Positions 5,601-56,601 of a DNA stretch of 64,000 nt are shown in pieces. Positions within the stretch are counted from its first letter, which is position 1; each line of letters begins with the position of its first letter. The stretch lies in contig OZ014417.1 in assembly GCA_963965975.1 (NCBI GenBank), positions 1,655,821 through 1,719,820 on the forward strand. The letters run 5' to 3'. This DNA is from Xestospongia bergquistia (lineage: Eukaryota; Porifera; Demospongiae; Haplosclerida; Petrosiidae). The notes under the pieces were generated by a model, which ran no database searches, had not been told where the DNA came from, and saw only the letters and a program-made list of their open reading frames with translations. The position numbers and the translations under genes are program-made.

Positions 5601-6710
5601 TGTTTCATTTTTTATTTGTGCAACATCCTCGTGTAATGATAATTGAAAAGAAACACCATTACTAAAAGGTTGAATGGGACTGGAGTTTATATCATTGCTA
5701 TTGACATTATCTCTAGGCAGAGTGTTGTTAGATGTCATATTATAGCATAGTGGTCTTAGCATGGCTTCTGCATTTTTTGAAACACTCCAGTTACGGTATA
5801 CATTACCTACTCTTACAAAGATGTCATAATAAGACTCTTCATTACATTCCTCAATAAGATGATGCAACTGTATCATGAATTGCTGTTGTGAGATGATAGA
5901 TTGTGTCTGCTTTGCTATCAATACTACTTGCAGCAGAATTGATCCATTTTTTTGTTTTGACAATATCTCCTTTACAAAATCTTTAGTTTCTTTTAAATTC
6001 ATGAATGCAGTTGCATCTTTTTGATATATCTGCACTTTTCCAGGCAATTCTGTGTCAGAAAGAAACACTTCAACTATTTTTTGAAGAAGTAAACAATTAA
6101 GGTAATGCCAGTTGATGTTATTATTATTATCCAATGCATCAAACAGTTTTTTGTATGTTGCTTCAGTTCCATCTGGTAATGTGGTTATCCCTGTTAATGT
6201 TTTCACGTATCGATCAAGCTGTGTAAGTAAATCTGGTCTCTTTTCAAATTGTTTCTGAGTTTCTGCGAGTAATTGGGCAAATCTGTCTAGTAGATTAGCA
6301 ATCGCTTCTATGATGTTTGTTGGAAGTATACAGACTGGAGTACTAAATGAATCTTGATCATCATCTTCATTATTGTGACTAGAATCACATCTGTGCATTT
6401 GGTATTCTTCATGCACTTGATCTATAATAGTAGCATATTTTGTTCTAATGTTCTCAGCAACTGCAGGATTTACTTTTTCTACTGCATCAGCTATAGTATG
6501 CCATGAATGTACAGTATTGGTTTGTTCTAGCCATTTTTGGAGACAATGCTTTTTGCGCTCCCAAATACCTCCATGTGGGTAACATTCTTTGGCATCCTGA
6601 ATAATATGAGCAGGTAAATTGAGATATACAGCTAATTTTTCCCATTCAGATATTTCTTCCAGTTCACGACATAAAAGATTAACAGTAGGTGGACTGATAT
6701 TATCAGACAT
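2652..6710 (-). CDS. Gene B: Death domain / ankyrin-array protein, 1352 aa
   Basis: A single-exon gene starting at the ATG of MSDNISPP, the start shared with A and E. Residues 1-95 resemble a Death domain (WEKLAVYLNLP near the start; WHTIADAVEKVNP in the later helices). Residues about 140-365 are a helical middle module that I do not recognise; it includes the motif NWSVS. Residues about 371-1300 contain roughly 28 ankyrin repeats. The first 24 are twelve copies of a 66-aa pair alternating MTAVYIASQNGH and TPLMIASQNGH. The last four are more diverged and match the ends of D and E. The C-terminus is acidic (LEEDDDD). Ankyrin arrays bind proteins, so a scaffold or sensor built around a Death domain is inferred; no enzymatic domain is seen. 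The 67-bp minisatellite array lies about 280 bp upstream. Confidence 0.9.
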   Translation of the reverse strand: MSDNISPPTVNLLCRELEEISEWEKLAVYLNLPAHIIQDAKECYPHGGIWERKKHCLQKWLEQTNTVHSWHTIADAVEKVNPAVAENIRTKYATIIDQVHEEYQMHRCDSSHNNEDDDQDSFSTPVCILPTNIIEAIANLLDRFAQLLAETQKQFEKRPDLLTQLDRYVKTLTGITTLPDGTEATYKKLFDALDNNNNINWHYLNCLLLQKIVEVFLSDTELPGKVQIYQKDATAFMNLKETKDFVKEILSKQKNGSILLQVVLIAKQTQSIISQQQFMIQLHHLIEECNEESYYDIFVRVGNVYRNWSVSKNAEAMLRPLCYNMTSNNTLPRDNVNSNDINSSPIQPFSNGVSFQLSLHEDVAQIKNETTDIYIASQNGHFSVVSILLNNGAEPNITTNNGWTPLMIASQNGHGNIVELLLNKNVPVNTQNTDGMTAVYIASQNGHFSVVSILLNNGAEPNITTNNGWTPLMIASQNGHDNVVELLLNKNVPVNTQNTDGMTAVYIASQNGHFSVVSILLNNGAEPNITANNGWTPLMIASQNGHDNVVELLLNKNVPVNTQNTDGMTAVYIASQNGHFSVVSILLNNGAKPNITANNGWTPLMIASQNGHDNVVELLLNKNVPVNTQTTDGMTAVYIASQNGHFSVVSILLNNGAEPNITANNGWTPLMIASQNGHGNVVELLLNKNVPVNTQNTDGMTAVYIASQNGHFSVVSILLNNGAKPNITANNGWTPLMIASQNGHDNVVELLLNKNVLVNTQNTDGMTAVYIASQNGHFSVVSILLNNGAEPNITTNNGWTPLMIASQNGHDNVVELLLNKNVLVNTQNTDGMTAVYIASQNGHFSVVSILLNNGAEPNITTNNGWTPLMIASQNGHDNVVELLLNKNVPVNTQNTDGMTAVYIASQNGHFSVVSILLNNGADPNLANNDGMTPLMIASQNGHDNVVELLLNKNVPVNTQNTDGMTAVYIASQNGHFSVVSILLNNGADPNLANNDGMTPLMIASQNGHDNVVELLLNKNVPVNTQTTDGMTAVYIASQNGHFSVVSILLNNGVEPNITTNNGWTPLMIASQNGHDNVVELLLNKNVPVNTQTTDGMTAVYIASQNGHFSVVSILLNNGADPNLANNDGMTSLIIASENGYIDVIELLLEKNIPINTQDKDGTTAIYNASHSGHSSVASILLNKGADPNLARTNGWTPLLIASAGGHNEVVSELLKTQVNINHQIPTGNTALYFSSYFGHENIVRQLLESGADPLIRDMFGRSPLDIAHQQSHHNIALLLRESMAVLCDVDYQESLAGSFESGYTAGGLSTYYSSVGYSDIAQISDLEEDDDDIYINRLSKVRFGKVIKKYSS
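3225..5600 (-). repeat. 12 x 198-bp higher-order ankyrin tandem repeat inside gene B
   Basis: Twelve near-identical 198-bp units, each encoding two ankyrin repeats (66 aa). Protein variation is confined to a few sites: A/V, E/D/K and NIT/NLA after the LLNNG motif, W or M before TPL, and D or G before NVVELL. Synonymous identity is also very high, which indicates recent unequal crossing-over or gene conversion. Unit 12 (nearest the 3' end) is the most diverged and grades into the ordinary ankyrin repeats shared with the paralogues. Confidence 0.92.
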
Positions 6711-6989
6711 TGCGTACTATAGAATGATATAAGAAAAAGTGACAATAAATCTTATGATTGCAATATTGTCATAACAATATGAAACAGTTATACATTACAA
6801 CAGCTATATATAATATTGATTAGTATTACATACCTCAGTGAGTATAGATTCTCTATGGGTTTAGTCTATTCACTAGAAATATGCTGTACACTTAATGATG
6901 TAACTTGTATGCCATAAACAATTTAACTGATACACAAGAGAAGTTATTAGTCTAATATTTTAACAATGGAGGTAAACCACGTACATATG

Positions 6990-8068
6990 CAGGAGTGTGG
7001 AGTACTAGTGATAAGAATGTTAACAGTCACTAATTTACAATAGATATTGAAGTAATGAAGTGTGGAGTAAGAACGCTAACGATCACCATGTCAAGGTAGA
7101 TATCGAAGTAATGAAGTGTGGAGTACTGGTAATAAGAATGTTAACAGTCACTATGCCACAATAGATATTAAGGTAATGGAATCAGGAGTAGTCTAGTTAT
7201 AAGAACGCTAACAGTCACTATGCTACAATAGATATTAAGGTAATGGAGTCAGGAATAGACTGGTGATAAGAATGCTAACAGTCACTATGCCACAATAGAT
7301 ATTGAGGTAATGGAGTCAGGAGTAGACTAGTGATAAAAACGCTAATAGTCACTACGTCACAATAGATATCGAAATAATGAGGTGTGGAGTATTGGTCATA
7401 AGAATGTTAACAGTCACTATGCCACAATAGATATGAGGTAATGGAGTAAGAGTAGACTGATGATAAGAACACTAACAATCACTATGCCACAATAGATATT
7501 GAGGTAATGGAGTCAGGAGTAGACTGGTGATAAGAATGTTATAACAGTCACTATGCCACAATAGCTATTGAGTTAATGGAGTTAGGAGTAGACTAGTAAT
7601 AAGAACGCTAATAGTCACTATGCCACAATAGCTATTGAGGTAATGGAGTCAGGAATAGACTGGTGATAAGAACGCTAACAGTCACTATGCCACAATAGAT
7701 ATTGAGGTAATGGAGTCAGGAATAGACTGGTGATAAGAACGCTAACAGTCACTATGCCACAATAGATATTGAGGTAATGGAGTCAGGAATAGACTGGTGA
7801 TAAGAACGCTAACAGTCACTATGCCACAATAGATATTGAGGTAATGGAGTCAGGAATAGACTGGTGATAAGAACGCTAACAGTCACTATGCCACAATAGA
7901 TATTGAGGTAATGGAGTCAGGAATAGACTGGTGATAAGAACGCTAACAGTCACTATGCTACAATAGATATTGAGGTAATGGAGTCAGGAATAGACTGGTG
8001 ATAAGAACGCTAACAGTCACTATGCCACAATAGATATTGAGGTAATGGAGTCAGGAATAGACTGGTGA
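6990..8068. repeat. 67-bp minisatellite upstream of gene B (about 16 units)
   Basis: Tandem units contain TGGTGATAAGAACGCTAACA and CACAATAGATATTGA. The period is exactly 67 bp in the homogeneous part (about 7620-8060); units nearer gene B, from about 6990, are diverged and vary in length. The array abuts the broken Death-domain copy C on its right. A related 67-bp array lies upstream of gene E. Confidence 0.93.
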
Positions 8069-8164
8069 AAGTAGTCTCTGGAACCATTTTTAGGAGGCAA
8101 AATTGGTCTGGGGGATCAATTTAGAATGGCGACATGACTATAGGGTGGGGGTATATTATTTTAG

Positions 8165-8716
8165 TTCTTAAATATTCCAATGAAATGATACATTGGGCTT
8201 CATCTGGTGAAGATTTGTCATGTACTCCACATTCTTTCAAGTATCGAAGTAATGGTAAAAGAAACTTTTCTGAAATGTCTATGTTTTTGAAACGAGCATA
8301 GCAAATTTGTCTTCTAAGTTAATTATTTCTTCAACTATGTTTTTTTCAAGTTGCATTTCATTTTCAATTGATTTTTTAATGGTGGTTTGATGTTGGTCAT
8401 TATTTGTTCTGCCTCCTTCATTTTGTACAGTAACTTGATCTATAATAGTAGCATATTTTGTTCTCAGCAACTCTATAGGGTTCACTTTTTCTAGTGCATT
8501 AACTACAGTACGCCATGAATATACAGTGTTGGTTTGTTCTAATCATTTTTGTAAAGAATGCATTTTGCACTAGTTTATTGTTGAAAATCGTCCTCTGACA
8601 TCTTCAATATCGACAAAAGACAACTTGAGAGACACAGCTACTTGATCCCATTCAACTACTTGTCTCAGTTCATCACACAGTATATCAAGAGTAGGTGGAC
8701 TGATATTATCAGACAT
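8165..8716 (-). pseudogene. Copy C: broken type II Death-domain gene fragment
   Basis: This stretch is homologous to the second half of gene A (type II Death domain plus start of the middle module) and has its own MSDNISPP ATG at 8716. It carries an in-frame stop where the paralogues read KWL (AAATGATTA near 8545), a small deletion around the codons for VNPRVAENIR, and further indels near 8250-8280. Homology ends near 8165, shortly before the minisatellite. Its upstream flank matches the upstream flank of gene A, so this is one end of a segmental duplication. No intact product can be read. Confidence 0.85.
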
Positions 8717-10887
8717 TGTGTAAGTAATAATAGTCTCTAGATATAAGATGTAGTTTCTTGCAATTCTGTCAAAAAAGTAGTAGTTTGATAATAATAAAAT
8801 TTTCTAAAGAGAATAATGCTGAGTCACTTTTGTCACTACCTAGACTGTATCAAAACTGTCTTTGATAGGAAATAGACCACTAGTCTACACTTTTTTATTT
8901 GACAGAGATATATCCAGTAAATAATTACTATTACCAATGAGATGAGTTCACAATATATTACTATTACCAATGAGTTCAGTTCATAAATGGCTAGTATAGA
9001 GTCCAACTAGTCAATCAGATCTTTGTGGCTTTGTTTCATAAACTGTTTAAAGCTGACAAAGGAATATTGTAGTGTGAGATATTAAGTTGTAATTTACTTG
9101 TTTACTTTGAACAACAAGAAGGGGGCTAGCAATGACAGGAATGTAATTAAGCCTTTCAAGTTCTATAATATAATTGTCCATATAAGGTAATTATAACATG
9201 CTCAAAATTTATTAAGTCTACTGAACTGGAGTTGCTTCATGGTGTGCTAGCATAACTGTTAATGGTCAGTCTCATCCAATAGAAGATTATGTGTCTGAAA
9301 CTTTAGAATAATGTCAATGAATCATTAAACTTTACAGAAACACTACTACCTTATTATAAAGACACCGTTTTGACATAAATTGAGATAATAAAAGTTTGTG
9401 TATTAATTGCTAATGTCATTTTTCTACAGATTTTCTTCACTCATATTTAACTGGCTCTCCTGTAAGAATTAATGAGTTATTTTCACCCAACTATTTGTAA
9501 TACAATGAATTATTAAACTTTACAGAAACCCTATACTATAATACCTTATAATAAGCTCACTTGATATATTAATTTGTTTTGAAACAAATTGAGATAATAA
9601 AAGTTTACATATTAATTGATAATGTCATTTTTCTACAGATTTCCTTCACTCATAATTAACTGACTTTCCATAAGAATTGAATTAAGTTATTCTCAACCAA
9701 CTACTTGTAATGGATGACTGAATTAATTGCTGTGGTATTGCAAAGTTGTACAACTACTCACTGAATCATTAGCTGATTGCATTATATATAACATGTACCA
9801 ACTTATTTGTACATGACTTTTGGATTCCATAGTATAATTTACTCATGTAAGCTACAAATTGCATGGTTTTTTGAAGTGACTTTAACTGACTTTTCAACAG
9901 CTGTTACCAATCTTTATGATACTCATATAAAATTTGCTGACACAGACAAGTTAGTATATACCAGTAGTTATTAACTATATCTTTGTCTTTGTATTGTAGT
10001 GAGAATATAGTTAGAATACTTAACAATAAACTAATGAACATAGAGAGATCATTTATTTTACCAGAAGGATTACCAGGACGACCATATTATAAGTAAGTAA
10101 CAATACTCTATATACATGTACTTCACTTAAGAACAATAGTTGATCCTTCTACCTGTCCATTCTTTTCTCTATCCATCCATTCATTCATCTTATGCTATGG
10201 ATCAACCCAGTGTTGAATTGGTTAATTAATTAGATATGAACTTTTATAGAAGTTACTGAACACAACTTCCCTATATATATTTAATATGACAATATTATGT
10301 AAAAACGTTTAACAGATAACTGTTTGAAATTTTGATTTTTATAACCTTTAGTGACATTTGCTTTCTGTTTGAAGATTTTCTTGACATTTCATTACATAAT
10401 TCTTGCAGTTCTTATGATGATAGTACTCTAGTTATAATTATTCATAAAACATTTCTTTAAACCAAGACAATAATTTTATTACTTTATTAGCTGTAGCAGA
10501 AATAATTACTACTCTTATTGACATGATTTAATGTACTGTACGTTACAAAAGACTGTAGTGGATAAGTTTCATATTCATTTATAATAAAGGGTATTATAAT
10601 CAATAGCAATGTATAAATGTACAACATTGTATACTATCAGTTATCATTTTAAATCTAATATACCAAAAATCTCAAAAATGTATGTTCATGTTTATTGTTT
10701 TGTATCTCTTAACTTCTTTTCAGGTCACTTTATCACTAAAAAGGAAAATACATTAAACATTATAGTAATTATAGGGTTAACAAACAATCTTATGACTTTC
10801 ATGATCATGATACAAATTGCTTTGCTGAATGCTTTATAATAGGAACATCAATTCTTGTACTTATTAGCTTGTCAAATCTTATCTTTG
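8717..10887. repeat. Second copy of the A-B intergenic segment
   Basis: Homologous to 1064-2651 in the same orientation. Differences include an insertion of about 345 bp near 10141-10487 and an internal repeat of the CTTTACAGAAACAC... block near 9330 and 9515. No gene is supported here. Confidence 0.8.
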
Positions 10888-13116
10888 CTAATTTATCACT
10901 ATATATACATCATCATCTTCTTCTAGATCAGATATTTGTGCAATATCAGAGTATGCTATTGATAAATGATCAGTTGATAGTCTACTAGGTGTACAATAAC
11001 CTGACTCAATAGAACCTGCTAATGACTCTTGATAATCTACATCATGTAAAACAGCCATAGCTTCTCGAAGTAGTAATGCAATGTTATGATGACTTTGTTG
11101 ATGAGCTATATCTAGAGGTGAATGACCAAACATGTCTCTTATAAGTGGATCAGCACCACCTTCCAGTAGCTGTCTAACAATATTTTCATGTCCAAAATAA
11201 CTTGAGAAGTACAATGCTGTAGTACCAGTTAGAATTTGATAATTAATATTAACTTGCAATTGAGTCTTCAATAACTCTCTCACAACTTCATTATGTCCTC
11301 CAGCAGAAGCTATTAAAAGAGGTGTCCCCCCATTGGTCCTGACTAAGTTGGGATCAGCCCCTTTGTTAAGTAAGATAGAAGCAACAGAAGAGTGACCACT
11401 ATGGCTAGCATTATAAATAGCTGTCACTCCATTTTTGTCTTGGGTATTTATAAGAACATTCTTCTCTAGTAATAACTTAACAACATCACCATGACCATTT
11501 CTACTTGCTGCAATTAAAGGTGTCCAGCCATTGTTATTAGCTAGGTTAGAATCTGCACTGTTGTGAAGTAAGATAGAAACAACAGAAGAGTGACCATTCT
11601 CACTAGCCAAATAAGTAGCTGTTAGTCCATCTTCATCTTGCGTATTTATTGGAACATTCTTCTCTAATAATAATTCAACAATATCACCATGACCATTTAG
11701 ACTGGGTACCATAAGAGGTGTTGCACCTTCATTACTAGTTAAGTTATGGTCTGCTCCATTGGTAAGTAAGGTAGAAACAACAGAAGAGTGACCATTCGTG
11801 CTAGCCAAACAAATAGCTGTTAGTCCATCTTCATCTTGCGTATTTATTGGAACATTCTTCTCTAATAATAATTCAAAAATATCACCATGACCATTTAGAC
11901 TGGGTACCATAAGACGTGTTGTACCTTCATTACTAGTTAAGTTATGGTCTGCTCCATTGGTAAGTAAGGTAGAAACAACAGAAGAGTGACCATTCTCGCT
12001 AGCCAAACAAATAGCTGTTAGCCCATCTTCATCTTGGATATTTATTGGAACATTTTTCTCTAATAACAATTCAATAATATCATGATGACCATTTACACTG
12101 GCTACCATTAGAGGTGTTAGACCTTCATTACTAGCTAAGTTAGGATCTGTTCCATTGGTAAGTAAGATAGAAATGGCAGAAGAGTGACCATTATGGCTAG
12201 CCAAACCAATAGCTGTTAGTCCATTTTCATCTTGGGTATTTATTGGAACATTTTTCTCTAATAACAATTCAATAATATCACGATGACCATTTACGCTGGC
12301 TACCATAAGAGGTGTTGCACCTCCATTTCTAGCTAACTTAGGATCTGCTCCATTGGTAAGTAAGATAGAAATGACAGAAGAGTGACCATTATAGCTAGCC
12401 AAACCAATAGTTGTTAGTCCATCTTCATCTTGGGTATTTATTGGAACATTTTTCTCTAATAACAATTCAATAATATCATGATGACCATTTACACTGGCTA
12501 CCATAAGAGGTGTTGTACCTTTATTACTAGCTAAGTTAGGATCTGCTCCATTGTTAAGTAAGATAGAAACGACAGAAGGGTGACCATTATGGCTAGCCAA
12601 ATAAATAGCTGTTACTCCATTTCTGTCTCGGGTATTTATTGGAACATTCTTCTCTAGTAATAATTCAACGATATCACCATGACCATTTTTACTGGCTACC
12701 ATAAGAGGTGCTACACCATCTTTCTGAGCTAGGTTAGGATTTTCTCTATCGATAAGTAATGAGGAAACGACAAAAGAGTAACCATATTCACTAGCTAGGT
12801 ACAATGCAGTAGTACCATCTATACTTATCGTTTTAGATAAAGAGGATATTACTGTTTCATCAGACTGTGTTAGTAGGTTAGGATTATCACCTACTTCAAG
12901 AAGTAGAGATATTGCAGAAAGAGGACCATGAGATTGAACAGCTTTTAATAGAGCTGAGTCAAATGTCATATCATCTCGTGAGTCTTCATTGTTAAAGACT
13001 ACAATATTACCTACTGTTAGTAAGATGACTCCAATTGCTTTTATTTCTTCAATGTCAAATTTAGATCTTGTTATGACAAGAGCTATCTCTTGAGAAACAC
13101 TCCAGGTAACATGCAT
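10888..13116 (-). CDS. Gene D: ankyrin-array paralogue lacking its Death-domain half, 742 aa
   Basis: The frame begins at MHVTWSVSQE, which aligns with the middle of gene E (CVVWSVSEVIAF, about residue 305). About ten further codons upstream still resemble gene E (DIVVRKGS), but an in-frame TAA lies near 13150 and no homology is seen beyond about 13160. About 18 ankyrin repeats follow, alternating TAIYLAS/TAIGLAS and TPLMVAS types, then a C-terminal tail like that of B and E with an acidic LEEDDD stretch. The Death domain and most of the middle module are missing. It may be a 5'-truncated duplicate, or it may be expressed from a new upstream exon that I cannot identify. The ankyrin frame is intact over 2.2 kb, so truncation may be recent or the short form may be selected. 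Confidence 0.75.
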   Translation of the reverse strand: MHVTWSVSQEIALVITRSKFDIEEIKAIGVILLTVGNIVVFNNEDSRDDMTFDSALLKAVQSHGPLSAISLLLEVGDNPNLLTQSDETVISSLSKTISIDGTTALYLASEYGYSFVVSSLLIDRENPNLAQKDGVAPLMVASKNGHGDIVELLLEKNVPINTRDRNGVTAIYLASHNGHPSVVSILLNNGADPNLASNKGTTPLMVASVNGHHDIIELLLEKNVPINTQDEDGLTTIGLASYNGHSSVISILLTNGADPKLARNGGATPLMVASVNGHRDIIELLLEKNVPINTQDENGLTAIGLASHNGHSSAISILLTNGTDPNLASNEGLTPLMVASVNGHHDIIELLLEKNVPINIQDEDGLTAICLASENGHSSVVSTLLTNGADHNLTSNEGTTRLMVPSLNGHGDIFELLLEKNVPINTQDEDGLTAICLASTNGHSSVVSTLLTNGADHNLTSNEGATPLMVPSLNGHGDIVELLLEKNVPINTQDEDGLTATYLASENGHSSVVSILLHNSADSNLANNNGWTPLIAASRNGHGDVVKLLLEKNVLINTQDKNGVTAIYNASHSGHSSVASILLNKGADPNLVRTNGGTPLLIASAGGHNEVVRELLKTQLQVNINYQILTGTTALYFSSYFGHENIVRQLLEGGADPLIRDMFGHSPLDIAHQQSHHNIALLLREAMAVLHDVDYQESLAGSIESGYCTPSRLSTDHLSIAYSDIAQISDLEEDDDVYIVIN

Positions 13117-13150
13117 ACTGCCTTTTCTGACAACAATATCTTGAAGTTAA

Positions 13151-14200
13151 TATAAATCAATGTATTGTAAATAATTTATCACTAATATTTCCACTAAAGT
13201 AATTATTATTACTGCATGTAGTATCAATGTATCATGACAATCACACAATGTTATCATTGTCCTACACATATTGGTACTCCACCCTTGGTGACTGTGGCAA
13301 GTTAATCATGTCAAAATATGTTTCTTTAGAAATGTGATATTGTTTAGTATTGCTCTTATACAGTAGTTATTAATACTGTTCCTTGTAGGATTGACAAGAA
13401 TTTACCTGAGAATCAATGAGTAATGATGTATAATCATGTCAATGACCTTAATATGGTTGTCTTGGTAACCACTTACCTTTTATATCATAATTATGTAACA
13501 TGATATAGTTATACTATATGTTGTGTGGCGCTCATTAAAATTAACCCTTTGTTTGCTTCTATACTACGATTTGTTGTAAATGAGGGGTATGGGTTTCTGT
13601 CATAGTGATATGATTATCTAATATCAATATACTTTATAAGGGGGTTTATTTTAGACTCTAGCTATACAGTGAGAATTTGCATCTAATTGAACCATGGATA
13701 TGATTTTTTCAATTTTGAATTTGTTTAAAGTTGGAAGTGACTATACTTCCTTTATTCGGAGTTTAAAGAGTGTCCAGATATGACTTAAGATACAGGGTGC
13801 TGTATGACTATCCATTATACAATCTATCTGCAAGATATTTCTGACTTATAGTATAAATTAATGTATTGTAAATAATTTATCACCAGTAAAGTATTTATTA
13901 TTACAGTATGTGGTATCATGATAATCACACAATGTTATCATTGTCCTACACATATTGGTACTCCACCCTTGGTGACTGTGGCAAGTTAATCATGTCAAAA
14001 TATGTTTCTTTAGAAATGTGATATTGTTTAGTATTGCTCTTATACAGTAGTTATTAATACTGTTCCTTGTAGGATTGACAAGAATTTACCTGAGAATCAA
14101 TGAGTAATGATGTATAATCATGTCAATGACCTTAATATGGTTGTCTTGGTAACCACTTACCTTTTATATCATAATTATGTAACATGATATAGTTATACTA
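13151..14200. repeat. Tandem duplicate of about 0.35 kb at 13151-13510 and 13853-14200
   Basis: The block beginning near ATGTATTGTAAATAATTTATCAC and running through CCACCCTTGGTGACTGTGG to GTAACATGATATAGTTATACTA occurs twice, about 700 bp apart. The left copy starts exactly where gene D loses homology to its paralogues. The piece between the copies (about 13525-13720) recurs near 24597-24770 beside gene E's upstream satellite. No gene is supported in 13150-15430. Confidence 0.8.
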
Positions 14201-15431
14201 ATATGAATTGTTATGTAACACACAATCAAGCAAACAGTTTGGGTCTGTCGTTATAGCAACCTGATATTGAATAATGGATCAGGATACTCTGATTAATATT
14301 CACATTAGTCACTTCAATTAATATAATGAGGACTTGTAACATCATTGGATGATGGCAATATCAAGTGTTGTATGACATAATATTTGTTTGACTTGTGAGA
14401 GTTAATAACATGATGTGTTTATGCTTCTAATGTAGGTCAAGTTAATGGCATATTCTTACTATTATATGTAGTATATAATTTTGTATTTGTAACTTTAAGA
14501 ATCTGTATCATGTATGTGTATTAATAATAATAATTATTACTATAATCACACTTATAATATGTACTATATGTACTACAATCCTTTCTTAGTATTTATGTAC
14601 AGTATATCTATGGCAATAGTGAATTAAGAACTTGAGAGCACAGTGAATAGTAGTCATTTTTCTATTTTTAACATGAACATTTATCACAATTCAATTCAAC
14701 TTATTTGCTTTAACATCTTTAAACAGAACATTTACATCATGAGGGTGGGTGCATAGGTTGTTGAGATGATACATCTTAGGTCATGATTGAAATACTATTT
14801 CATTTTTAACATAACATATAATGACATTATTAACATGAACAGACTTCTATTGTAGTACATACAATGAAGTGACTTTAGTCTGTTTGACTCTGTCAGATGT
14901 TATGAACAATGCTATTATGACTCTATTAGTTATTAGTATTGTTTAGTTCTTTATTATCTATACATAAAATGTCCACATAAGGAGAGATGTTTCTTGCAAA
15001 GTGAGTGAGTCTTTATAAATCTGGGTATTAATATTTATTATGTTGATTAAAATAATTCAATTAAAATGAGAATTTGAAATTATTAATTAAAAAGGTTGCA
15101 ATAATTAATAAGTAATTAATAATAACATTTCTATTTACACAATAAAGATTGCTTCAAGTGGTAAAATGTTTAGGGATAATATAATATATTGAATAATTTT
15201 TATACATCATAATAAAAATATATAAGTTTATTTAACTTTAAATGCCAAACAATTAAGTGTTAAAGTGGATTACCAAAATAGAATTCTTCTAAAATGATTG
15301 AATCGTTAAGTCATTATGTCTGAGCCTCTTAACAATATGTCTCTTCTCTTATTGGAATTGGATTCTATACAATTAATAGAAAAGAAAGTAATAATTTAGT
15401 TGATATTATATTTTGGTATTAAAGTTTAACT

Positions 15432-17023
15432 TTAATTACCTGATATGGTAAAACAATTATCCCATTCTTGTTTAGAGATTGAGTTATTGCTCTTAGAGAC
15501 AAACAGTTGTTCAACTTGAACTTGAAAAGATTTTGTTCCTATCAAGTTATATATTTCAGTTAGAAGATCAGAGTGTTGTAATTTTCCATCATTGTTCAAA
15601 TCATAGTATTTGAACTTCCATCTCCTAATAGAAGACAGCACCATCAGGTGAATATTAGGAAACAGATCTTCTCTTGAAAGTTTTAACTTATACTCTGTGC
15701 AATCTAAAGTGATGAAACAAACTCTTATGAATATTAATAATCTGATTGACAATATAATATGTATTACATAATACAGTCAGAGTTAATTAACTATGGTATG
15801 AATGATGAAATGAAGTTTATGAGTGTTTTGCTTACTTTGACTGTTTCCATTGTGTCTCACAACAATATTTGTCATATTGATACAGTTTTGTTTCTTTAAT
15901 TCACACTGGTTTGAGTAAGTCTTGTCATCAGAGCTACAAATTTTTTGTGATTCTGAAGGACATTTATAATAACAACTAAGGGAGAAGAAAGAGATACACT
16001 CTGTATAATGATTAGAGTTAGAAATAAATATGGTTGTGTCCTATGTTTTATTACACACGTAGCTTACCTGTTTCTGACACAGCGTCCATCAACACATTCA
16101 TAGCTAATAGTATAATTTGGTTCACAATAATCTTTAAAAAGAAAAAAAATAATCAAATGACATATATTATTTGGTGTCTTTCAATGTATGGCTTAAGAAT
16201 GACTGTAGTTTAGTGGATTTCAGTTATACCATAAACTTAAATTGGGTGTAACATTGTAGATGGAAAAGCTTTTGTGAGTCAGACTAAACCTTTTCATGGT
16301 TCTTTGTAGTCTTGATACCAGATGCTTTGGTAGGGGGAGGAAATATCTGAAGAAAATGCTACAACTTCTGATCGTAGTCCAAAGATTTCAGTGTGCCAAT
16401 TAGATTGTTTATGTCTTAACGACATTGTCCTCAGAAATGTTAATTATAGACATATGTACAAATATGTGCTTACCAATTAAGAAGAGATATAAGAAAGACT
16501 ATATATAGCTAGTTATTAACTAATAATTAGACAAATTGGGACTATAGCAATCTTAATGACAAATAAAACCTGGTTATTAGGCAGTTTATACTAAGAAATG
16601 ATGTTTTTTTATACATCTTTACACAACATTTAGAAATACTTGTGCTATAATATTGTCTTCCATTACTGTTGACATTCTTCACTAGTGTGATAATGCCACA
16701 CCCACATATTTTAAATAACATACTAACTTTATTAGGTTATTAATTAACTAATTACTTCAGGCTTTGATGTATACATGCAATCAGACCTTTCCTCTCTAGC
16801 CAAAGAACCGGCAACACCAAACTGACTAGGTTCTTACCAACTGTCTCTTCTAAATCTATCTCACTTTTATTTCTAACTGGTATTTTGTGTTTTTTTTTAT
16901 ATCTACAAACTTACCTATAAAAGTAGTGTCATTGATGTTTATCAGACCAGCTGCATTAATTAGTGATAAAAATGTTAGTCCTGCTAACAAAATGACATGA
17001 GATTTCTCTCCAAACATTGTCAT
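15432..17023 (-). CDS. SPARC/follistatin-like secreted protein, 194 aa, 4 exons
   Basis: Exons (3'-5' on the plus strand): 15432-15703, 15836-15975, 16068-16131, 16915-17023; all introns are GT-AG and phases close. Residues 1-25 form a signal peptide (MTMFGEKSHVILLAGLTFLS). A short cysteine-bearing follistatin-type piece (DYCEPN...ECVDGRC) is followed by a Kazal-like domain (CYYKCP...ICSSDDKTYSNQCEL...C). The last exon encodes the helical extracellular calcium-binding domain typical of SPARC, SMOC and FSTL1, with the EF-hand loop DLNNDGKLQHSD and a closing W-DNC. An extracellular matrix-associated or secreted calcium-binding role follows from the family. It is much shorter than SPARC or FSTL1. 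A further 3' exon is possible because TCAGGTAATTAA also reads as a donor, but the in-frame stop is immediate. Confidence 0.82.
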
Positions 17024-20000
17024 TTAGTATTGAGAATAAATTCCCTGAAATTGAAAGAACAAAAATAATAACAGGACTCAGTACTAGCTTTCACTAATTA
17101 GAAAAAATAAAGGAGTTCTCAAAAGTAGAGTAATTACTTGCAACAATAAAACGACAACTATTACGTTACAACAATAGCTCAAGTCTTTAGGACATGAAGA
17201 CATGACTTAAACATAATTAAGACTGACCTCAGTTATTTTCCACAAATGATGAAATACACTTCTTGATTAAGTGGGACTCACTAGTATATCTACAAATCAC
17301 TTTCGAATGCAAACTGTGACTTTTAGCCATTCTTATATACTAACTGATCTGGAAGAAGCTCGAGTTCAATATTGTTATGGCTTAGGGGCGTGGCAAGTTA
17401 TAATTACACCACAATCCCATCCTCAATCCTTGAGAGTAGTCGATGTATGGTTCTTTCTTTGTGTCTTAGTGCCACTAAAGTCATTTATCACGGTATTTTC
17501 AGGATAAGGTCAGCTATGTTACTGTAGATTTGTAATTATGATAGATATCCTCAAATCTAATTTTTCACTTGAAACCTACCTTGTTGTATTAATAGCAGTA
17601 AAGAGCTCTTCATATTAACAATTGTTAGTTGGTAATTGATGTGTTTGCAATAAATTAATGTATTAATCATATGGCATTCTCCTTAAAAGTCATTATATCA
17701 AATTAATGACGAGAAACACAAAATCTTGTAAAATATTTGAAATAATTATAGTTAAATAAAATTAAGATAATAGAATATTGAAGTTTATGATTATTTTAAT
17801 GATTTTTATTGTCATAGCTGTGGTTAGGTGGGTGTGTATGTACATGGTAAAAATAACTAGGAAATAATTTGTATCATTGTTTGTTTTGTTTTAACAACAA
17901 TGTTTGTTATATTTAGACATATTTAAAAATGGATTCTACCAAACAAGTCCATCATTTGTTTATTGATTACTTCTATGTACGTTTATATCATCTTATACCA
18001 TTATAAAAATTAATGCTCTTGTTCACAAATGCTGACATGGTATGTGAATCACACACACACACACACACACAAATAATGTCCTACATTGAAATTTAATTAA
18101 TAATATCTAATATGAATACCAGTAATTATTGTCCAAATATTTTACTTAGAGACAATTAAACATAAAGTCTGAAATGTCTTATCATAACTATTACCTCTCT
18201 GCTTAAGCCTTTTCAACTACAATTGCTATGTAGAAGACCTATTATATATGTAGTGGTAGTCTTGTGTGTTAAATATATATAGTTACATGTATCCAGTGTT
18301 GTTGTGTCATAACAATGTACTCCACAGTTTCTATGTAGGAGACCTGTACCTAGCCATTGTGTAGTAATATGATAGCATACCAATTCCTCATGAATAATAT
18401 GAGAATTGCATTGTCATAGTGATGTAATTATGGTAAGCAGTCCATAGTTTCATGAAGGAGTAAGAAGTGTACACTTAAACTTTCAGATATGGTCATGAGC
18501 AAATTACTATGGTTTGTCTAATGTTACAATGGCTTTTATTGACAGTTGCATCCCCGTTCCTCCTTTGTGAGACAATAAGCTCCCTTTATGGTAATGTCTG
18601 TTATAAGGAATTAAATGGACATCATCATGCTACAATAATAATGAATACTAATTGCTTCTAAAAAATTCACGGGTACATGTTCATGCATGCCCGAAAATAG
18701 AAGAATCAGGAAAACATTTGACAATATGGAATTCAGTGAGTTTGACATATATGGTCAAATGTTTCCACTATATCATTTATGATATGTAATTTTCAGCTAT
18801 TTAGTTTAATGTTATATAATGACTTAACAGTTAGACTAAATGGCTTTGTGTTGTGCCAATATTGTAATATATGTCTGGCTATATGAATTATAGTCTTTAG
18901 GGACAAGCACATTATTATTATGTCATTATGTCAACAATTTTGCAGCTGGTCTCCCACACTACAACTTGTAGTAGTTCAATGTTATTTGATATGTCTTAGT
19001 ATGTTAACAATTTTGTAATAATAATTGTTTTTATGCATATATGATACTCTAGATCTGCTGTTATTTATAGCACTTTTTCCCTTATATGGATAGATGCATG
19101 ACAAATTTAAAATAACATCATACATTTTTACTTATTACTTAAATGGTATAAAAGATATAACATTACTGATCACTATGGTTACATAGAAGTTATCAGCATT
19201 TATCCTTTCAACAAGTTAATATTCTTGATTTTATTTGTCCTCTAGGTATACCGTAACTTGTCCCTGTGATAATTTCTAGACTGTCAATGAACAATGGAAG
19301 ACCCCTCCCATTTTTCAAACCAAGTTATAATGCATAAATTGTCATATGATTATCATGTGATTTGTTATTCAATAGGATATGTAATTTGGACTTTGCAAGT
19401 GACTTTACTTTCTTGTTCAGGATGTAGGAGTTACCAGCTGTAACATAAGTTAGCAGATACCATGATCATCCACTTATGTTCACTATCAATCCATTTTAGA
19501 GTAATAATTAATTTTGTCTATCTTTCAGTTCATAACAATTTTTATTAGATGATTCTTTACTGTTTGACATTCTTCACTAGTGTGATAATGCCACACCCAC
19601 ATATTTTAAATAACATAATAACTTCATTAGGTTATTAATTACATTCAGGCAGAATAGGTTTGATGTATCAGACTTTTCCTCTCTAACCAAAGAGGCAGCA
19701 ACACCAAACTTGACTAGGTTCTTAGCCAGGGGCCTACCTGAAAAAAATTGATGATGGTAGGGCCCCAGACGTAGGCGTGGTTATCAAAACGTGTTAATGG
19801 TTATTACACTATAGATAATTAGTTATGAATAGTTGTGACTTTGAAGTTACCAAATGAAACTTATGTGACAATACTGTAGTGGATAAACTTCAAATATATT
19901 TATAATAGGAAGTATTATAATATAATCACTAACAATGTATAAAATCTATAATATTGTATACTATATCAGATATTATTTTTACAAACATGTACAAATCAAC

Positions 20001-20297
20001 ATAATATTAAAGTTAATGTTTAGACTCTGTGTATCCCACAACTTTTATCACAGATGAATTTGTCTCTGAAAAAAGAAAAAAATACATATAGTAATTATGG
20101 GGTTAATTATTTTCATAATGATGATATATATTCCTTTGCTAAATGCTTAATAAAGGAAACATTAGTAACTAATAACAACAACAACAATAATAATAACAAT
20201 AGTAGTAGTAGTAACTTATAGTGTTCTATTTGTCATTATATAAATGTTCTTATTATTATTTAGTCAAATCTTACCTGTTGTATACAATTATTTGTCT
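17024..20297. other. Intergenic region without a supported gene
   Basis: No convincing exon is seen on either strand. It contains a (CA)n tract at 18051-18070. It also contains a diverged repeat at about 19563-19735 that matches 16671-16840 inside the first intron of the SPARC-like gene (shared GACATTCTTCACTAGTGTGA and GGTTATTAATTA). The part at 19860-20150 is a decayed copy of the 3' flank of genes B and D. Confidence 0.7.
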
Positions 20298-23210
20298 TTA
20301 TATCAAATCATCTTCTAAATCAGAGAGTTGTGCAATATCAGAGTCTTCAGTTGATAATCCACTAGTTGCATACCCTGACTCAACAGAGCCCGCTAATGAC
20401 TCTTGATCATCATTATGGAAACCACTCACCATAGCTTCTTGGAGGAGTGACACAACACTGCGATGACTTTCTTGATGAGCAATATCTTGAGGTGTCATGC
20501 CAAACATGTCTTTTATAAGTGGATTAGCACCACCATCTAATAGTTGTCTAACAATATCCTCATATCCATATTGACTGGAAAGATGTAATGCTGTAGTACC
20601 AGTAGGAGTTTGATGATTGATATTAACTTGAGTCTTCAATATCTCTCTCACAACTTCATTATGTCCTGCAGCAGAAGCTATTAAAAGAGGTGTCCAACCA
20701 TTGGTCCTGGCTAGGTTAGGATCTGCTCCATTGCGAAGTAAGATAGAAATGACAGAAGAGTGACCATTATGGCTAGCCATATAAATAGCTGTTGTTCCAC
20801 TTTTGTCTTGAGTATTTATTGGAACATCCTTCTCTAGCAATAATTCAACAATATCACCATGACCATTTTCACTGGCTACCATAAGAGGTGTTGTACCTTC
20901 ATTACTAGCTAAGTTAGGATCTGCTCCATTGTTAAGTAAGACAGAAACAACAGAAGAGTGACCATTATAGCTAGCCAAATAAATAGCTGTTACTCCATTT
21001 TTGGCTTGGGTATTTATTGGAACATTCTTCTCTAATAATAATTTAACAATATCACCATGACCATTTTGACTGGCTACCATAAGAGGTGTTGCACCTTCAT
21101 TACTAGCAAAGTTAGGATTTGCTCCATTGTTAAGTAAGATAGAAACAACAGAAGAGTGACCATTCTGGCTAGCCATATAAATAGCTGTTTCTCCAGTTTT
21201 GGCTTGGGTATTCATTGGAACATTCTTCTCTAGCAATAATTCAACGATATCACCATGACCATTTTGACTGGCTACCATAAGAGGTGTTGCACCATCATTA
21301 TCAGCTAGGTTAGGGTCTGCTCCATTGCTAACTAAAATAGAAATGACAGAAGAGTGACCATTTTGGCTAGCAAAGTAAATGGCTGTTGCTCCATTTTTGT
21401 CTTGCGTATTTATTGGAACATTCTTCTCTAGTAATAATTCAACGATGTCACCATGACCATTTTCACTGGCTACCATAAGAGGTGTTGCACCATCATTATC
21501 AGCTAGGTTAGGGTCTGCTCCATTGCTAAGTAAAATAGAAATGACAGAAGAGCGACCATTCTGGCTAGCAAAGTAAATGGCTGTTGCTCCATTTTTGTAT
21601 TGTGTATTTATTGGAACATTCTTCTCTAGTAATAATTCAACGATGTCACCATGACCATTTTCACTGGCTACCATAAGAGGTGTTGTACTTTCATTACTAG
21701 CTAAGTTAGGGTCTGCTCCATTGCTAACTAATATAGAAATGACAGAAGAGTGACCATTCTGGCTAGCAAAGTAAATGGCTGTTGCTCCACTTTTGTCTTG
21801 TGTATTTATTGGAACATTCTTCTCTAGTAATAATTCAACGATGTCACCATGACCATTTTCACTGGCTACCATAAGAGGTGTTACACCATCTTTCTGAGCT
21901 AGGTTAGGATTTGCTCCATTACTAATTAATAAGGATACAACAAAAAAGTAACCATATTCACTAGCTATATACAATGCAGTAGTACCATCAATACTTTTCA
22001 TTTTAGATACAGTAGATATTATTGTTTCTCCAGACTGTATTAGTAGGTTAGGATTACTACCTACTTCAAGAAGAAGAGATATAGCAGTAAGAGGACCATC
22101 AGACTGAACTTCTTTCAACAGAGCTGAGTCAAGGGTCAAGTCATCTTGTAAATTTTCATTGTTAAAGACTACAATGGTTCCTACTGTTAGTGAGATAACT
22201 CCAATTGCCTTTAACATTTCATTTTCAAGTCTAGACAATCTCACTGTGAGAATGAAGAAAGCTATGACTTCAGAAACACTCCACACAACACACATACAAC
22301 CTTTTTTGACAGAAATAACATAAAGATAATCTGCATATTCTTCAAAAAGGAGCTTTACCAGAAACTCAAAATGTTCTAATGTAACATCTAGCCACATTTC
22401 GTTAACTTTCAATACAACCTTGACTTTAGTTGTTATATTTGGTTTTATGTTATCGATAAGGTCTTTTATTTTTGAGGACCCTTTAAATGAAGCTAAATCA
22501 ACTAGATATTCCTGCACTTTACTGGGCAAGTCAGTGTCTGAAAGAAAATCTTCAACTATTGTTTTGAGAGGTTTACATTTGAGGTAATGCCACTGGTCAC
22601 CTAATATAGTGAACAGCATGTTGTATGTGATTTGAGCATCAGGTAGATCTGGTAATGGTATTGGACTATTCTTCTGTCGTATTTTTAAGTATTGATAAAA
22701 TGGTAAACACTTCATTGGTCTTTCTTGAAAGTATTCAAGTGTATCCGCAACTAACAAAGCAAACCTACGTTCAAAGGCAGTGATTTTTTCCACTATGTCC
22801 TCCTCTATCACAAACTTAGCTGACAGTTGGTCATCAATTAAACCATTAGAATTTTCATGTTGTGAAGTGGATGGTTGGTCATCAATTAAACCACTAGAAT
22901 TTTCATGTTGTGAAGTGGATAGTAGAATAGTAGCATACTTTGTTCTTATATCCTCAGCAACTCTAGGGTTCACTTTTTCTACTGCATCAGCTACAGTATG
23001 CCATGAATGTACAGTATTGGTTTGATCTAGCCATTTTTGTAGACAATGCATTTTGAAGTCCCAAATACCTCCATGTGGATTATGAACTTTAGCATCCTGA
23101 ATAACATGATAAGGTAAATTGAGATATAGTGCTAGTTTTTCCCATTCATATATTTCTTCCAGTTCACAACATAAAAGATTAACAGTAGGTGGACTGATAT
23201 TATCAGACAT
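20298..23210 (-). CDS. Gene E: Death domain / ankyrin-array protein, 970 aa
   Basis: Single exon. The start is taken at the conserved ATG of MSDNISPP; the frame is open a few codons further upstream but without an ATG. Residues 1-95 are the Death-domain-like module. A linker follows with the direct repeat STSQHENS-GLIDDQ twice. Residues about 140-375 are the unrecognised middle module, which ends in two beta-rich stretches (CVVWSVSEV and GVISLTVGTIVVFNNE). Residues about 405-935 hold about 16 ankyrin repeats with the same two-type alternation as B but with normal divergence. The C-terminal tail is acidic (LSDLEDDL). As the most complete and least homogenised family member, it is the best reference for the architecture. 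Function as a protein-binding adaptor is inferred. Confidence 0.9.
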   Translation of the reverse strand: MSDNISPPTVNLLCCELEEIYEWEKLALYLNLPYHVIQDAKVHNPHGGIWDFKMHCLQKWLDQTNTVHSWHTVADAVEKVNPRVAEDIRTKYATILLSTSQHENSSGLIDDQPSTSQHENSNGLIDDQLSAKFVIEEDIVEKITAFERRFALLVADTLEYFQERPMKCLPFYQYLKIRQKNSPIPLPDLPDAQITYNMLFTILGDQWHYLKCKPLKTIVEDFLSDTDLPSKVQEYLVDLASFKGSSKIKDLIDNIKPNITTKVKVVLKVNEMWLDVTLEHFEFLVKLLFEEYADYLYVISVKKGCMCVVWSVSEVIAFFILTVRLSRLENEMLKAIGVISLTVGTIVVFNNENLQDDLTLDSALLKEVQSDGPLTAISLLLEVGSNPNLLIQSGETIISTVSKMKSIDGTTALYIASEYGYFFVVSLLISNGANPNLAQKDGVTPLMVASENGHGDIVELLLEKNVPINTQDKSGATAIYFASQNGHSSVISILVSNGADPNLASNESTTPLMVASENGHGDIVELLLEKNVPINTQYKNGATAIYFASQNGRSSVISILLSNGADPNLADNDGATPLMVASENGHGDIVELLLEKNVPINTQDKNGATAIYFASQNGHSSVISILVSNGADPNLADNDGATPLMVASQNGHGDIVELLLEKNVPMNTQAKTGETAIYMASQNGHSSVVSILLNNGANPNFASNEGATPLMVASQNGHGDIVKLLLEKNVPINTQAKNGVTAIYLASYNGHSSVVSVLLNNGADPNLASNEGTTPLMVASENGHGDIVELLLEKDVPINTQDKSGTTAIYMASHNGHSSVISILLRNGADPNLARTNGWTPLLIASAAGHNEVVREILKTQVNINHQTPTGTTALHLSSQYGYEDIVRQLLDGGANPLIKDMFGMTPQDIAHQESHRSVVSLLQEAMVSGFHNDDQESLAGSVESGYATSGLSTEDSDIAQLSDLEDDLI

Positions 23211-23231
23211 TGTGAACTGTAACAAATACTA

Positions 23232-24290
23232 ACAACTGTTATAGTAACCTAGTCAAGAGTAGACAGTGGTAATAAGAATACTAACAGTTGTTGTCACAGT
23301 AGATATTGAGGTAGCTAGTCAAGAGTAGAATCGTGAAAAGAGCGCTAAACGTTTTGCTGCAGTAGATATTGAGGTACCCTGGTCAAGAGTAGAGCGCTGA
23401 TAAGAGTGCTAGCAGTTGTTGTGTTGCAGTAGATATTGAGGTAGCTTAGTCAGGAGTAGAGTGGTGATAAGAGCGCTAGCAGTTGTTGTGTCGCAGTAGA
23501 TATTGAGGTAGCTTAGTCAAGAGTAGAGTGGTGATAAGAGCGCTAGCAGTTGTTGTGTCGCAGTAGATATTAAGGTAGCTTAGTCAAGAGTAGAGTGGTG
23601 AAAAGAGCGCTAGCAGTTGTTGTGTTGCAGTAGATATTAAGGTAGCTTAGTCAAGAGTAGAGTGGTGAAAAGAGCGCTAGCAGTTGTTGTGTTGCAGTAA
23701 ATATTGAGGTAGCTTAGTCAAGAGTAGAGTGGTGATAAGAGCGCTAGCAGTTATTGTGTTGCAGTAGATATTGAGGTAGCTTAGTCAGGAGTAGAGTGGT
23801 GATAAGAGCGCTAGCAGTTGTTGTGTCGCAGTAGATATTGAGGTAGCTTAGTCAAGAGTAGAGTGGTGATAAGAGCGCTAGCAGTTGTTGTGTCGCAGTA
23901 GATATTAAGGTAGCTTAGTCAAGAGTAGAGTGGTGAAAAGAGCGCTAGCAGTTGTTGTGTCGCAGTAGATATTAAGGTAGCTTAGTCAAGAGTAGAGTGG
24001 TGAAAAGAGCGCTAGCAGTTGTTGTGTTGCAGTAGATATTGAGGTAGCTTAGTCAAGAGTAGAGTGGTGATAAGAGCGCTAGCAGTTATTGTGTTGCAGT
24101 AGATATTGAGGCAGCCTAGTCAAAAATAAAGTGGTGATAAGAGTGCTAGCAGTTGTTGTGTAGCCTAGTCAAGAATAAAGTGGTGATAAGAGTGCTAACT
24201 GTTGCGGTGGATATTGAGGTAATTGAGACTGGTATTAAGAACATTAATAGTTGCTATGTTGCAGTAAATATTAAAGTATTTAATCAATAG
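23232..24290. repeat. 67-bp minisatellite upstream of gene E (about 16 units)
   Basis: Tandem units contain GAGTGGTGATAAGAGCGCTA and CAGTAGATATTGAGGTAGCT. The period is 67 bp in the homogeneous core, and the array starts only about 20 bp upstream of the gene E ATG. It aligns with the array upstream of gene B at about 75% by eye, with mostly transition differences. The ends are degenerate. Confidence 0.93.
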
Positions 24291-24847
24291 TAGATTGATA
24301 AAAGGATTTAATATCTGTTTTTACTAAATCTATACGACCCTAACATTGCCATATAACTGATAGTAACATAGATATAGAACAACAAGTAGATTACCTTGGC
24401 TATTTATGATTAATATACAGAAAAGCACTGACCACGATAACAGATCTCTCTTAATTAATCTTATTAAACTCTTGTTATTTGAGATAGCAGCTTAGATTGC
24501 AATTTTAAATCTGTTAAAAGCTTTAAATGAATAAATGTTAGAGGATTCAAGAGAACTTACCAGAAGAGCAGCCTCGCCCCAAGAACAAAATTAAGGTGGG
24601 CTCTTGTTAAAATTAACCCTTTGTTTACTTCTATACTAAAACAAAGGGGGTGAAGTTAGACATATCATTGATATCTAATATCAAAATACTTTATAAGGGA
24701 TTTATTTGTAGTCTCTAGCTATACAGTGAGAATTTGTATCTAATTGAACTACGGATATGATCATGTTGGATTTTGAGTTTTGTTTTTAAATTTGTTACAA
24801 AATTAATGAAAATTGATACATGTATTATCAATAATTTGAAATATTCA

Positions 24848-27227
24848 TTAAATATTATCTATAGTTCCTAAAGGTTCTCCATATTTCATTCTCTCGCCAG
24901 ACTGTACTCTGAATTTAAAACTAGAAGGTGCCTCAAACAATAGTACAACAGTTGATCCAAAATTGAACCCGCCCACATGTTGTCCTTTAACGAGTTTCTC
25001 TCCTACTTTACCGAGACGTTTGTCAGTATAAGTATTATATTTGTAGTGAGTTGTAACATTAGTTTGAAGTTCCTATAGATAGTGTGAAAATAGTTACATC
25101 TAAATATGGAACATGAACACAATGGTTAATATATATTACACTGTGCACATTATAGTTGATGTATCATTCATTCATTCATTGGGTATATTACCTGATAAGA
25201 GTCCAAATATATAGAGCCTACATTTAGTGCTCCTACTGCAGTGAGAGAAAAGTAACCATGTTGCCATTGACCAGATAACAAGACCCTCTCATTGAGAGCA
25301 AACAGACCAGGCATAGTTCGAACTGCCCAAGGAGACACTGTAAATAGCTCACCTAATAAGAAAGAATAGAGTAATGGAGAGAGAAAGAGAGAGAGAGAGA
25401 GACTCACCAGGAAAGTAGCGATACATATGAACAGACCAATTAGTAGGTGAATGGAAATGATGATAGTCACCTGGTGACAAGTACAACACAGCTGTATGTA
25501 ACACCGTGTTATCATTTGATCGACCATATTTGGGCAACACTCCTCTACCAAGAAAAGTCTGTAGAGAATATTGAACTCCTTTGACTTGTTCCACTTGGTT
25601 GTTCCTGACAGTTCCCACGTACATAACAGTACCATCAACTGGAGAAACCTGTATAGCATGTAATAATGTTGTCATGGTTACCAACCTTTACGACCTACCA
25701 TTTCATGTACAGGATCTATTGGTCTGACATCAGGATTTATTTGACGTTTAAAAAGGTTTCTTAATGAGGTGTAACACCTCAATTTTGTTTCTTTAGCTTC
25801 GTACATTTTTACTTTAAAAAGCCATATAAATATTGAAAATACAATATATCGTAAAGGAAGGGGAAGATAAAGGTCACTAGCTCGGCCCATAAATTTTGAA
25901 AGACTTCTCAGGGGGAGGAATCGGAATAACAACAGCTGCCATGTGACAGCTTGTGGAGATGCTAGACATATTTGTTCTGTAAATGTTCTTCTGATGTGTA
26001 GTATTATAAGAAACAGACCAGCTGTAAAAGACAGGAAGAATGTCTTCTTTAATATGCACAATGAAGGATCAGGTGATTTCTAGGTGTAGTAAAGAATCCA
26101 ATAAAGTGGAATGTGTCATGCACACTTGTTACTCTAAGAATTAATTCTTATCATACCTTTAGTGTAGTAGACACCCACTGTACTTGATTGTCTAATAAGA
26201 ATTGATGATATTCTAAAGCAAAGAAAGTAGAGAGTTATTATTAAAATTGAACAATATAACATTATTAATGTTATATAATTCAATTATTTTGCTTATGCAC
26301 AGATAAATGATAATATATACCTCTAGCATAATGGTTTGTAACTTGTTGACACACACACACACATACACTCTTTTTATGTAAAACAACAAAGTAGTAAGTA
26401 ATTTTGCAAGGGACTTCTGACCTGATCTACCCCTCTTTCTTAAAACTATATTTAAGTTACCAAAATAATTAACTTATTATGTAAACACTTCAAAAAGTCC
26501 TTCTATTCTTAAGATGAAAAGAAGGAGGATACAGCAGTCACTACTTACTTGATGATCTTTTCAATGTGGTACTTGTAGTAACTGATGGTGTTGTTTTCTC
26601 ACTCTGTAGTATAACAATGACAACAAGTGATAAATGATTGTTAATTATAAGTGTCTACCTTATCCTTTAAGTAAATTGAATGAGTATTAGTTGACACCTT
26701 TAGACAGCTGGAGTGTTTGGGAAGCAACACTGCTGGACAAGTGTCATTGCTGTTATTGAGTCTGTGTTGGGTAAAAAGAAAGGTTTGATAATAAACATTT
26801 AGAGACCTTAATAGCTAATATAACAGTAAATACTGTGAATATTATTAACAAAGTCAATAAGGGTCAAGGTCATGCATGCTGAGACCACAATCATCACGTG
26901 ATTATTGCGTGGGAAATGATAATACTCACAACAAAACAATATTATTTTTTGTATAGATGACGGCAATAATGCAATGCAATGCACTCACCGGGTTGTTTCC
27001 ACTGGTGGTGATAGGGATATAGACTGCTGTAGTCTCCAGAAAGCTAGACTGCCGCCACAATGGTACGTAAACGCAACACTGGTGATCATAAACAATACGC
27101 ATAGACTGAATTTTATTGACAATTCATCTTGTCTGTGTTGTGCATTAAATTTTATTCTAGTTACTGTCCCTAGGTAAGTGTTATAGCACTTCCTAGGAAG
27201 AGTAGACGACAGTTTTCGCAGTCCCAT
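24848..27227 (-). CDS. PISD: Phosphatidylserine decarboxylase proenzyme, mitochondrial, 486 aa, 8 exons
   Basis: Exons: 24848-25072, 25192-25352, 25408-25648, 25699-26079, 26157-26212, 26549-26603, 26659-26761, 26989-27227. It converts phosphatidylserine to phosphatidylethanolamine in the mitochondrial inner membrane using a pyruvoyl group made by self-cleavage. Residues 1-25 ([13 protein letters not shown]...) look like a mitochondrial presequence, and residues about 40-55 form a membrane segment. Conserved blocks are SPVDGTV (catalytic Asp), [17 protein letters not shown] (His) and, near the C-terminus, [13 protein letters not shown] with cleavage expected between Gly451 and Ser452. Animal enzymes usually have LGST, so Phe is a conservative change. 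The region between presequence and core is longer than in vertebrates. It is divergently paired with the TP53I13-like gene. Confidence 0.95.

Positions 27228-51405: not shown

Positions 51406-56601
<5,196 letters not shown>

Follow-up and report, generated by a model that had tools for sequence, protein, structure and literature searches.

Minisatellites with a unit of about 67 bp precede two paralogous Death-domain/ankyrin genes in the window, the 64,000-nucleotide stretch of Xestospongia bergquistia DNA analysed here, and the two are a small part of the 20 genes of a single family that carry such arrays. We consider it very probable that the array lies in the 5' untranslated region (5'UTR) of these genes. 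Our preferred reading, which we consider slightly better than an even bet, is that of an AUG-poor 5'UTR minisatellite, specific to a subfamily, that would set the length of the leader, probably tune translation and also act as an interface for recombination. That the array has some sequence-dependent role at the RNA level is a separate claim, which we advance tentatively and place a little under even.

Both genes lie on the minus strand and encode an N-terminal Death domain and ankyrin repeats: gene B (2652–6710, ATG at 6710) with 1352 amino acids and gene E (20298–23210, ATG at 23210). The Death domain of B scores above the cut-off of Pfam PF00531 (24.0 vs 22.6 bits), while that of E falls below the curated cut-off (17.0 bits); PF00531 is matched at E ≤ 0.01 in 22 of the 23 family members scanned, and the best match among solved structures is FADD (E 2.5e-4). 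A further member on the minus strand, gene A (2–1063), is truncated by the window edge and encodes two fused Death domains that differ from each other, the second below the curated PF00531 cut-off; the sequence upstream of it is free of array units. The coding sequences have repeats of their own, as strongly homogenised 198-bp units that each encode two ankyrin repeats occupy 3163–5593, 11343–12785 and 20710–21929, with 95% matches in gene B.

Upstream of the start codons, TRF finds a period of 67 in both arrays, with 15.0 copies and 88% matches for array B (7068–8068) and 13.7 copies and 91% matches for array E (23250–24161). A unit profile widens them to about 7004–8068 and 23258–24280, with 16 unit matches of about 67 bp in each, all oriented as the minus-strand genes that they precede. 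A sequence-only reading of this DNA, which had described two related 67-bp arrays running the same way before two paralogues, is borne out by these results; its estimate that the arrays align at about 75% holds as to relatedness and is slightly too high, the measured unit identity between B and E being 0.71 (unit p 0.29; BLAST pieces of 67–76% among the matches listed). The distance from the final unit to the ATG is 294 bp for B and 48 bp for E, with degenerate remnants nearer. Around the arrays, a broken remnant of a Death-domain gene (8070–8716, minus strand) adjoins the upstream edge of array B, no unit being present over the 3 kb that precede the remnant's own start, and the end of a minus-strand gene at 24855–25700, which we presume by eye to resemble phosphatidylserine decarboxylase, is separated from the upstream edge of array E by roughly 570 bp. 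Elsewhere in the window, two places about 1.86 kb from each other (36703–37090 and 38567–38957) have the same set of short tandem repeats, suggesting a local duplication, and a 70-bp tandem repeat of 4.7 copies (56072–56399) shows by eye no relation to the 67-bp unit.

The repeat is nearly confined to one family. A Death-domain protein search gave 50 matches, of which we used the 35 with an E value of 2.4e-9 or better; two of them (C7:1656508 and C10:4013851) are second parts of genes already counted, and the upstream analysis covered the resulting 33 genes. The reference point is not an ATG in C1:352396, C7:2012069 and C9:5915945 and lies 20 bp inside the frame in C10:4300184, a gene that was placed 148 bp too far upstream in the genome-wide classification with its class unaffected. 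Units were found by profile upstream of 20 of the 33 genes, all 145 of them in gene orientation: in 5 of 5 genes on contig C10, 5 of 5 on C11 and 10 of 13 on C7, and in 0 of 6 on C9, 0 of 3 on C14 and 0 of 1 on C1. Pattern scans of the whole genome (146,460,797 bases, 21 contigs) with two half-unit patterns gave 97 matches, repeat counts of this kind being lower bounds and diverged units escaping both patterns. Of these, 95 (33 of 35 and 62 of 62 for the separate patterns) lie less than 1.5 kb upstream of the 33 family genes in gene orientation, although such upstream zones account for no more than 0.017% of the strand space. The other two matches, on C2 and C15, do not exceed the number given by reversed-pattern controls (4 and 2 matches genome-wide). 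A genome search for the unit, proposed in the sequence-only reading as a check on its association with these genes, therefore speaks for that association; a tie to every member does not hold, with 13 of 33 lacking units. A dispersed satellite or transposable element was rejected on the same counts, 2 of 97 matches outside the family being no excess over the reversed controls, with patterns that would miss strongly diverged copies.

Array size varies widely, with 2–16 unit matches per gene, some of them partial, across the paralogues of this one genome. The TRF period is 66–68 bp at eight loci, 55 at C7:1641627, 57 at C7:2012069 and 39 at three C11 loci. Several of the genes with arrays appear to be broken, their open frames being short. 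The array-less gene C7:1423977 has other tandem repeats (31/62, 32 and 23 bp) at −926 to −631 from its ATG.

Splice sites, which we read from the sequence, place the array between two candidate introns. A putative leader donor, AG/GTAT or AG/GTAG (the slash marking the splice boundary), occurs at −92 to −168 before the ATG in 16 of the 33 genes, and 14 of these 16, counted from the list of sites, have an acceptor at −6 to −8. In gene B the putative leader intron spans 6717–6833 on the minus strand (donor CTGAG/GTATGT, acceptor TATAG/TACGCA-ATG), the same pattern being seen in paralogues, and the stretch from array B to this donor (6834–7003, minus strand) would form the end of a 5'UTR exon. 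On the other side of the array, a mini-intron-like element of about 50 bp is present in 14 of the 20 array-bearing genes. Twelve of these follow from a simple rule, six on C7 (2036698, 2022738, 2004368, 2015993, 1651357 and 1635553) and six on C10 and C11 (C10:4478376 and 4243856; C11:5197876, 5213597, 5225421 and 5205933), and two were recognised by homology, namely C7:1641627 and gene E, which share the element and in the second of which the putative 50-bp intron lies at 24511–24560 on the minus strand (CTTCTG/GTAAGT...TTTTAACAG/ATTTAAA). The remaining 6 of 20, B among them, have no intact element of this common type: in C10:4300184 the donor of the element is altered, and none was found upstream of the array in B, C10:4274423, C10:4013699, C11:5190033 and C7:2012069. 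Applied to all upstream regions, the rule is matched in 22 of 33 on the sense strand vs 7 of 33 on the antisense strand and in a mean of 4.65 (maximum 8) in 20 mononucleotide shuffles, some of the 22 matches being clearly unrelated.

The stretch between these signals is poor in sense ATG. Observed against expected counts are 154 to 158.0 in the 500 bp that precede the mini-intron, 14 to 6.6 within it and 20 to 70.2 from its acceptor to the array (14 genes each), 24 to 131.9 in the array (15 of the 20 genes), and 4 to 24.1 from the array end to the leader donor and 34 to 38.3 in the leader intron (9 genes each, B included in the former). From acceptor to donor, sense ATG thus stands at 0.17–0.28 of expectation, as against 0.82–0.97 on the antisense strand (0.86, 0.82 and 0.92 in the three exon parts), far upstream and in the leader intron. 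With one gene per clade (7), the count before the array is 6 to 30.3. In the non-array parts of the exon, none of 51 trinucleotides is as depleted as ATG (0.25 of expectation, against 0.67 for the next), which occurs 24 times vs 93.0 in simulation (sd 8.6, minimum 69, 200 simulations). No ATG-poor stretch was found in 10 of the 13 array-less relatives, pooled (0.82–1.19 over ten 150-bp bins), and a mild sense deficit is seen in the matching stretch of two array-less genes, C9:5906596 (6 to 9.9) and C14:4178065 (9 to 11.7).

Inside the array, 114 aligned units contain 19 ATG vs 31.3 (sd 3.5) after column shuffling, with 0 of 500 shuffles at or below the observed count, and the antisense word CAT has no such deficit (125 vs 112.2); among the four transitions that would create an ATG in the unit consensus, one occurs more often than the other transitions do on average and three occur less often. 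This deficit of the array itself is the weaker evidence, because it partly reflects the common descent of the units and because AGA and CCC are depleted there to about the same degree as ATG. In gene B taken singly the contrast is clear, with 4 sense ATG vs 23.2 expected and 44 antisense vs 37.4 from array to donor, whereas gene E, where ATG is scarce on both strands (sense 4 to 12.6, antisense 2 to 23.6), is uninformative on the strand contrast. An acceptor-to-donor stretch that avoids ATG on the sense strand only is the mark of a spliced 5'UTR exon, and since the array sits within it, the array probably belongs to the mRNA leader and not to the promoter, where the sequence-only reading had put it.

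The transcript that we envisage would begin with a short exon 1, followed by the mini-intron of about 50 nt and then by the array-bearing 5'UTR exon, between a few hundred bases and about 1.2 kb in length; in many members a second short intron would end just before the ATG. Ribosomes would scan through the array exon, and sense AUG would be kept rare there for this reason. Being a slowly changing unit in 2–16 copies, the array may set leader length and carry a repeated RNA module, and its most likely effect would be to tune how much of a potentially dangerous death-fold protein is translated. Since the paralogues have the repeat in common, it could also provide a block of homology for exchange of the promoter and exon-1 segment.

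The most serious alternative, which we nevertheless consider unlikely, is that of a passive 5'UTR minisatellite with no effect of its own: it would have arisen once, been copied with the genes, expanded at some loci by slippage or unequal crossing-over and been tolerated since its unit is free of AUG. Several findings suit this account, among them that close paralogues have inherited the array together with the gene and its 5' flank, and the age of the C10 arrays, in which 0 of 25 aligned units from five loci are nearest to a unit of their own locus, each being closest to another C10 locus. It also fits that no consistent RNA fold of single units was found in six sequences (two of them antisense; z −2.1 to +1.2), on which grounds we rejected an RNA hairpin unit, and that site rates are no more uneven in the unit than in the leader (alpha 3.85 vs 3.90). 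What it does not fit is the slow divergence of the units. Taking the 15 array-bearing genes whose body was usable, in all their 105 pairs, we compared unit divergence with synonymous divergence of the body (pS), which is mostly 0.4–0.6 between clades, and in 93 of the 93 pairs with pS above 0.3 the units had diverged less, by about half (mean 0.26, range 0.18–0.36, vs 0.48); the compared units were detected by profile, which favours similar ones, and the C11 loci give one aligned unit each. The array-to-ATG stretch of many distant pairs, by comparison, is near the shuffled-sequence level (0.48, sd 0.05). In favour of the passive account, unit divergence does not climb with body divergence (rank correlation −0.20 in 29 hand-picked pairs), and because it is flat, units exceed body pS in 8 of the 12 close pairs (pS below 0.3) and are lower in 4.

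Copying between loci would keep units alike, and yet among 168 between-clade locus pairs, 112 of them testable at 50 positions or more, none has a unit pair of at least 95% identity. Recent interlocus copying is therefore unlikely to explain the slow divergence under the passive account, and we rejected ongoing copying of units between loci. Within arrays, mean unit identity is 0.89 (B) and 0.87 (E), and arrays B and E and part of that of C7:2036698 were homogenised recently; the earlier proposal that B and E were homogenised separately is supported by these results.

An array of promoter-proximal or intronic enhancers, each unit binding a transcription factor, appears improbable to us. It would account for the position and orientation of the array and for the slow divergence of its unit, and the word GACTCA, which we take to be part of an AP-1-like word, is present in 9 of the 20 locus consensus rows. 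This word is altered in the consensus of both B and E, however, and no conserved core stands out, since the site rates of the unit are no more uneven than those of the leader; AP-1 or any other single core motif was rejected on these two grounds. A promoter or enhancer fits the position of the array but neither the splice signals upstream of it nor the start-codon depletion, which is confined to the sense strand and extends into both flanks.

Exchange between paralogues is visible at these loci. From mini-intron to array, C7:2004368 is identical at 0.92 to C7:2036698 and at 0.94 to C7:2022738, whereas from array to ATG identity drops to 0.57 and 0.54, near a shuffled baseline of 0.48 (sd 0.05) that came from another alignment setting; the exchange therefore broke inside the array of C7:2004368. 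In the 80 bp before its mini-intron, this gene is identical at 0.95 to C7:2036698 and at 0.36 to C7:2022738. A second exchange concerns the Death domain: gene B and C7:1423977, about 240 kb apart, are 96% identical over −21 to +295 only (about 317 bp; 6415–6731 in the window), the flanks not aligning on the same diagonal at that level, and we interpret this segment as a conversion or cassette exchange. Among 13 close pairs, with a body pS of at most 0.24, the Death domain exceeds the body in synonymous divergence in 9. Leader and Death-domain trees (20 genes) disagree, which at first sight suggests promoter shuffling, but this disagreement is not counted as evidence, because exchange of the Death-domain segment explains much of it. 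That arrays are kept for promoting exchange among paralogues, shuffling promoters and Death domains, is very improbable in our judgement, for although one junction lies within an array and Death-domain segments have been exchanged a few hundred bases from arrays, that junction is the single clear one, array-less C7:1423977 took part in a Death-domain exchange as well, and clades share no recent units. The recombination role suggested from the sequence alone is thus borne out by one exchange junction and nothing beyond.

Related arrangements are known from other systems. The spacers of ribosomal DNA have tandem enhancer repeats at RNA polymerase I promoters and resemble the arrays in being homogenised tandem modules beside repeated transcription units; here the genes are protein-coding and transcription would start upstream of the array. 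Immunoglobulin switch regions likewise have related tandem repeats, all running the same way, on the 5' side of every paralogue and form a recombination interface, in their case for programmed somatic recombination. The 28-bp repeat unit of human TYMS affects translation. In the abstracts of the sources consulted, the TYMS repeat is a 5'UTR variable-number tandem repeat (PMC3320636, PMC4504634), and it shares with our arrays the type of repeat, the variable copy number and a proposed effect on expression, the 5'UTR location being predicted from sequence and the copy number varying between paralogues in our case. As those abstracts present it, TYMS concerns a single gene and polymorphism within a species; here a unit of about 67 bp is common to 20 paralogues on three contigs, with depletion of sense ATG. 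Expression-associated minisatellites near genes have been surveyed in humans (PMC8024321, PMC8096271), and judging by the summaries of these surveys they too lie beside genes and are linked to expression, at many separate loci rather than with a unit nearly private to one family. In the literature searched, judged by titles and the beginnings of abstracts, we did not find the same arrangement of a family-private leader repeat. What sets the array apart from known 5'UTR repeats of variable number is a unit almost confined to one multigene family, within a stretch that visibly avoids start codons.

A more far-reaching idea, to which we give rather little credence, is that the unit is an RNA module through which one trans-acting factor would bring 20 death-fold genes on three contigs under joint translational control, graded by copy number, the same array being the seam of promoter exchange. 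Depletion of start codons on the sense strand only can place an untranslated exon from DNA alone and reclassify what looks like a promoter minisatellite. If our reading is true, an mRNA-leader repeat with a rapidly evolving copy number would control a whole family of immune-like and potentially lethal proteins, and this would offer a simple route to differences in dose between paralogues.
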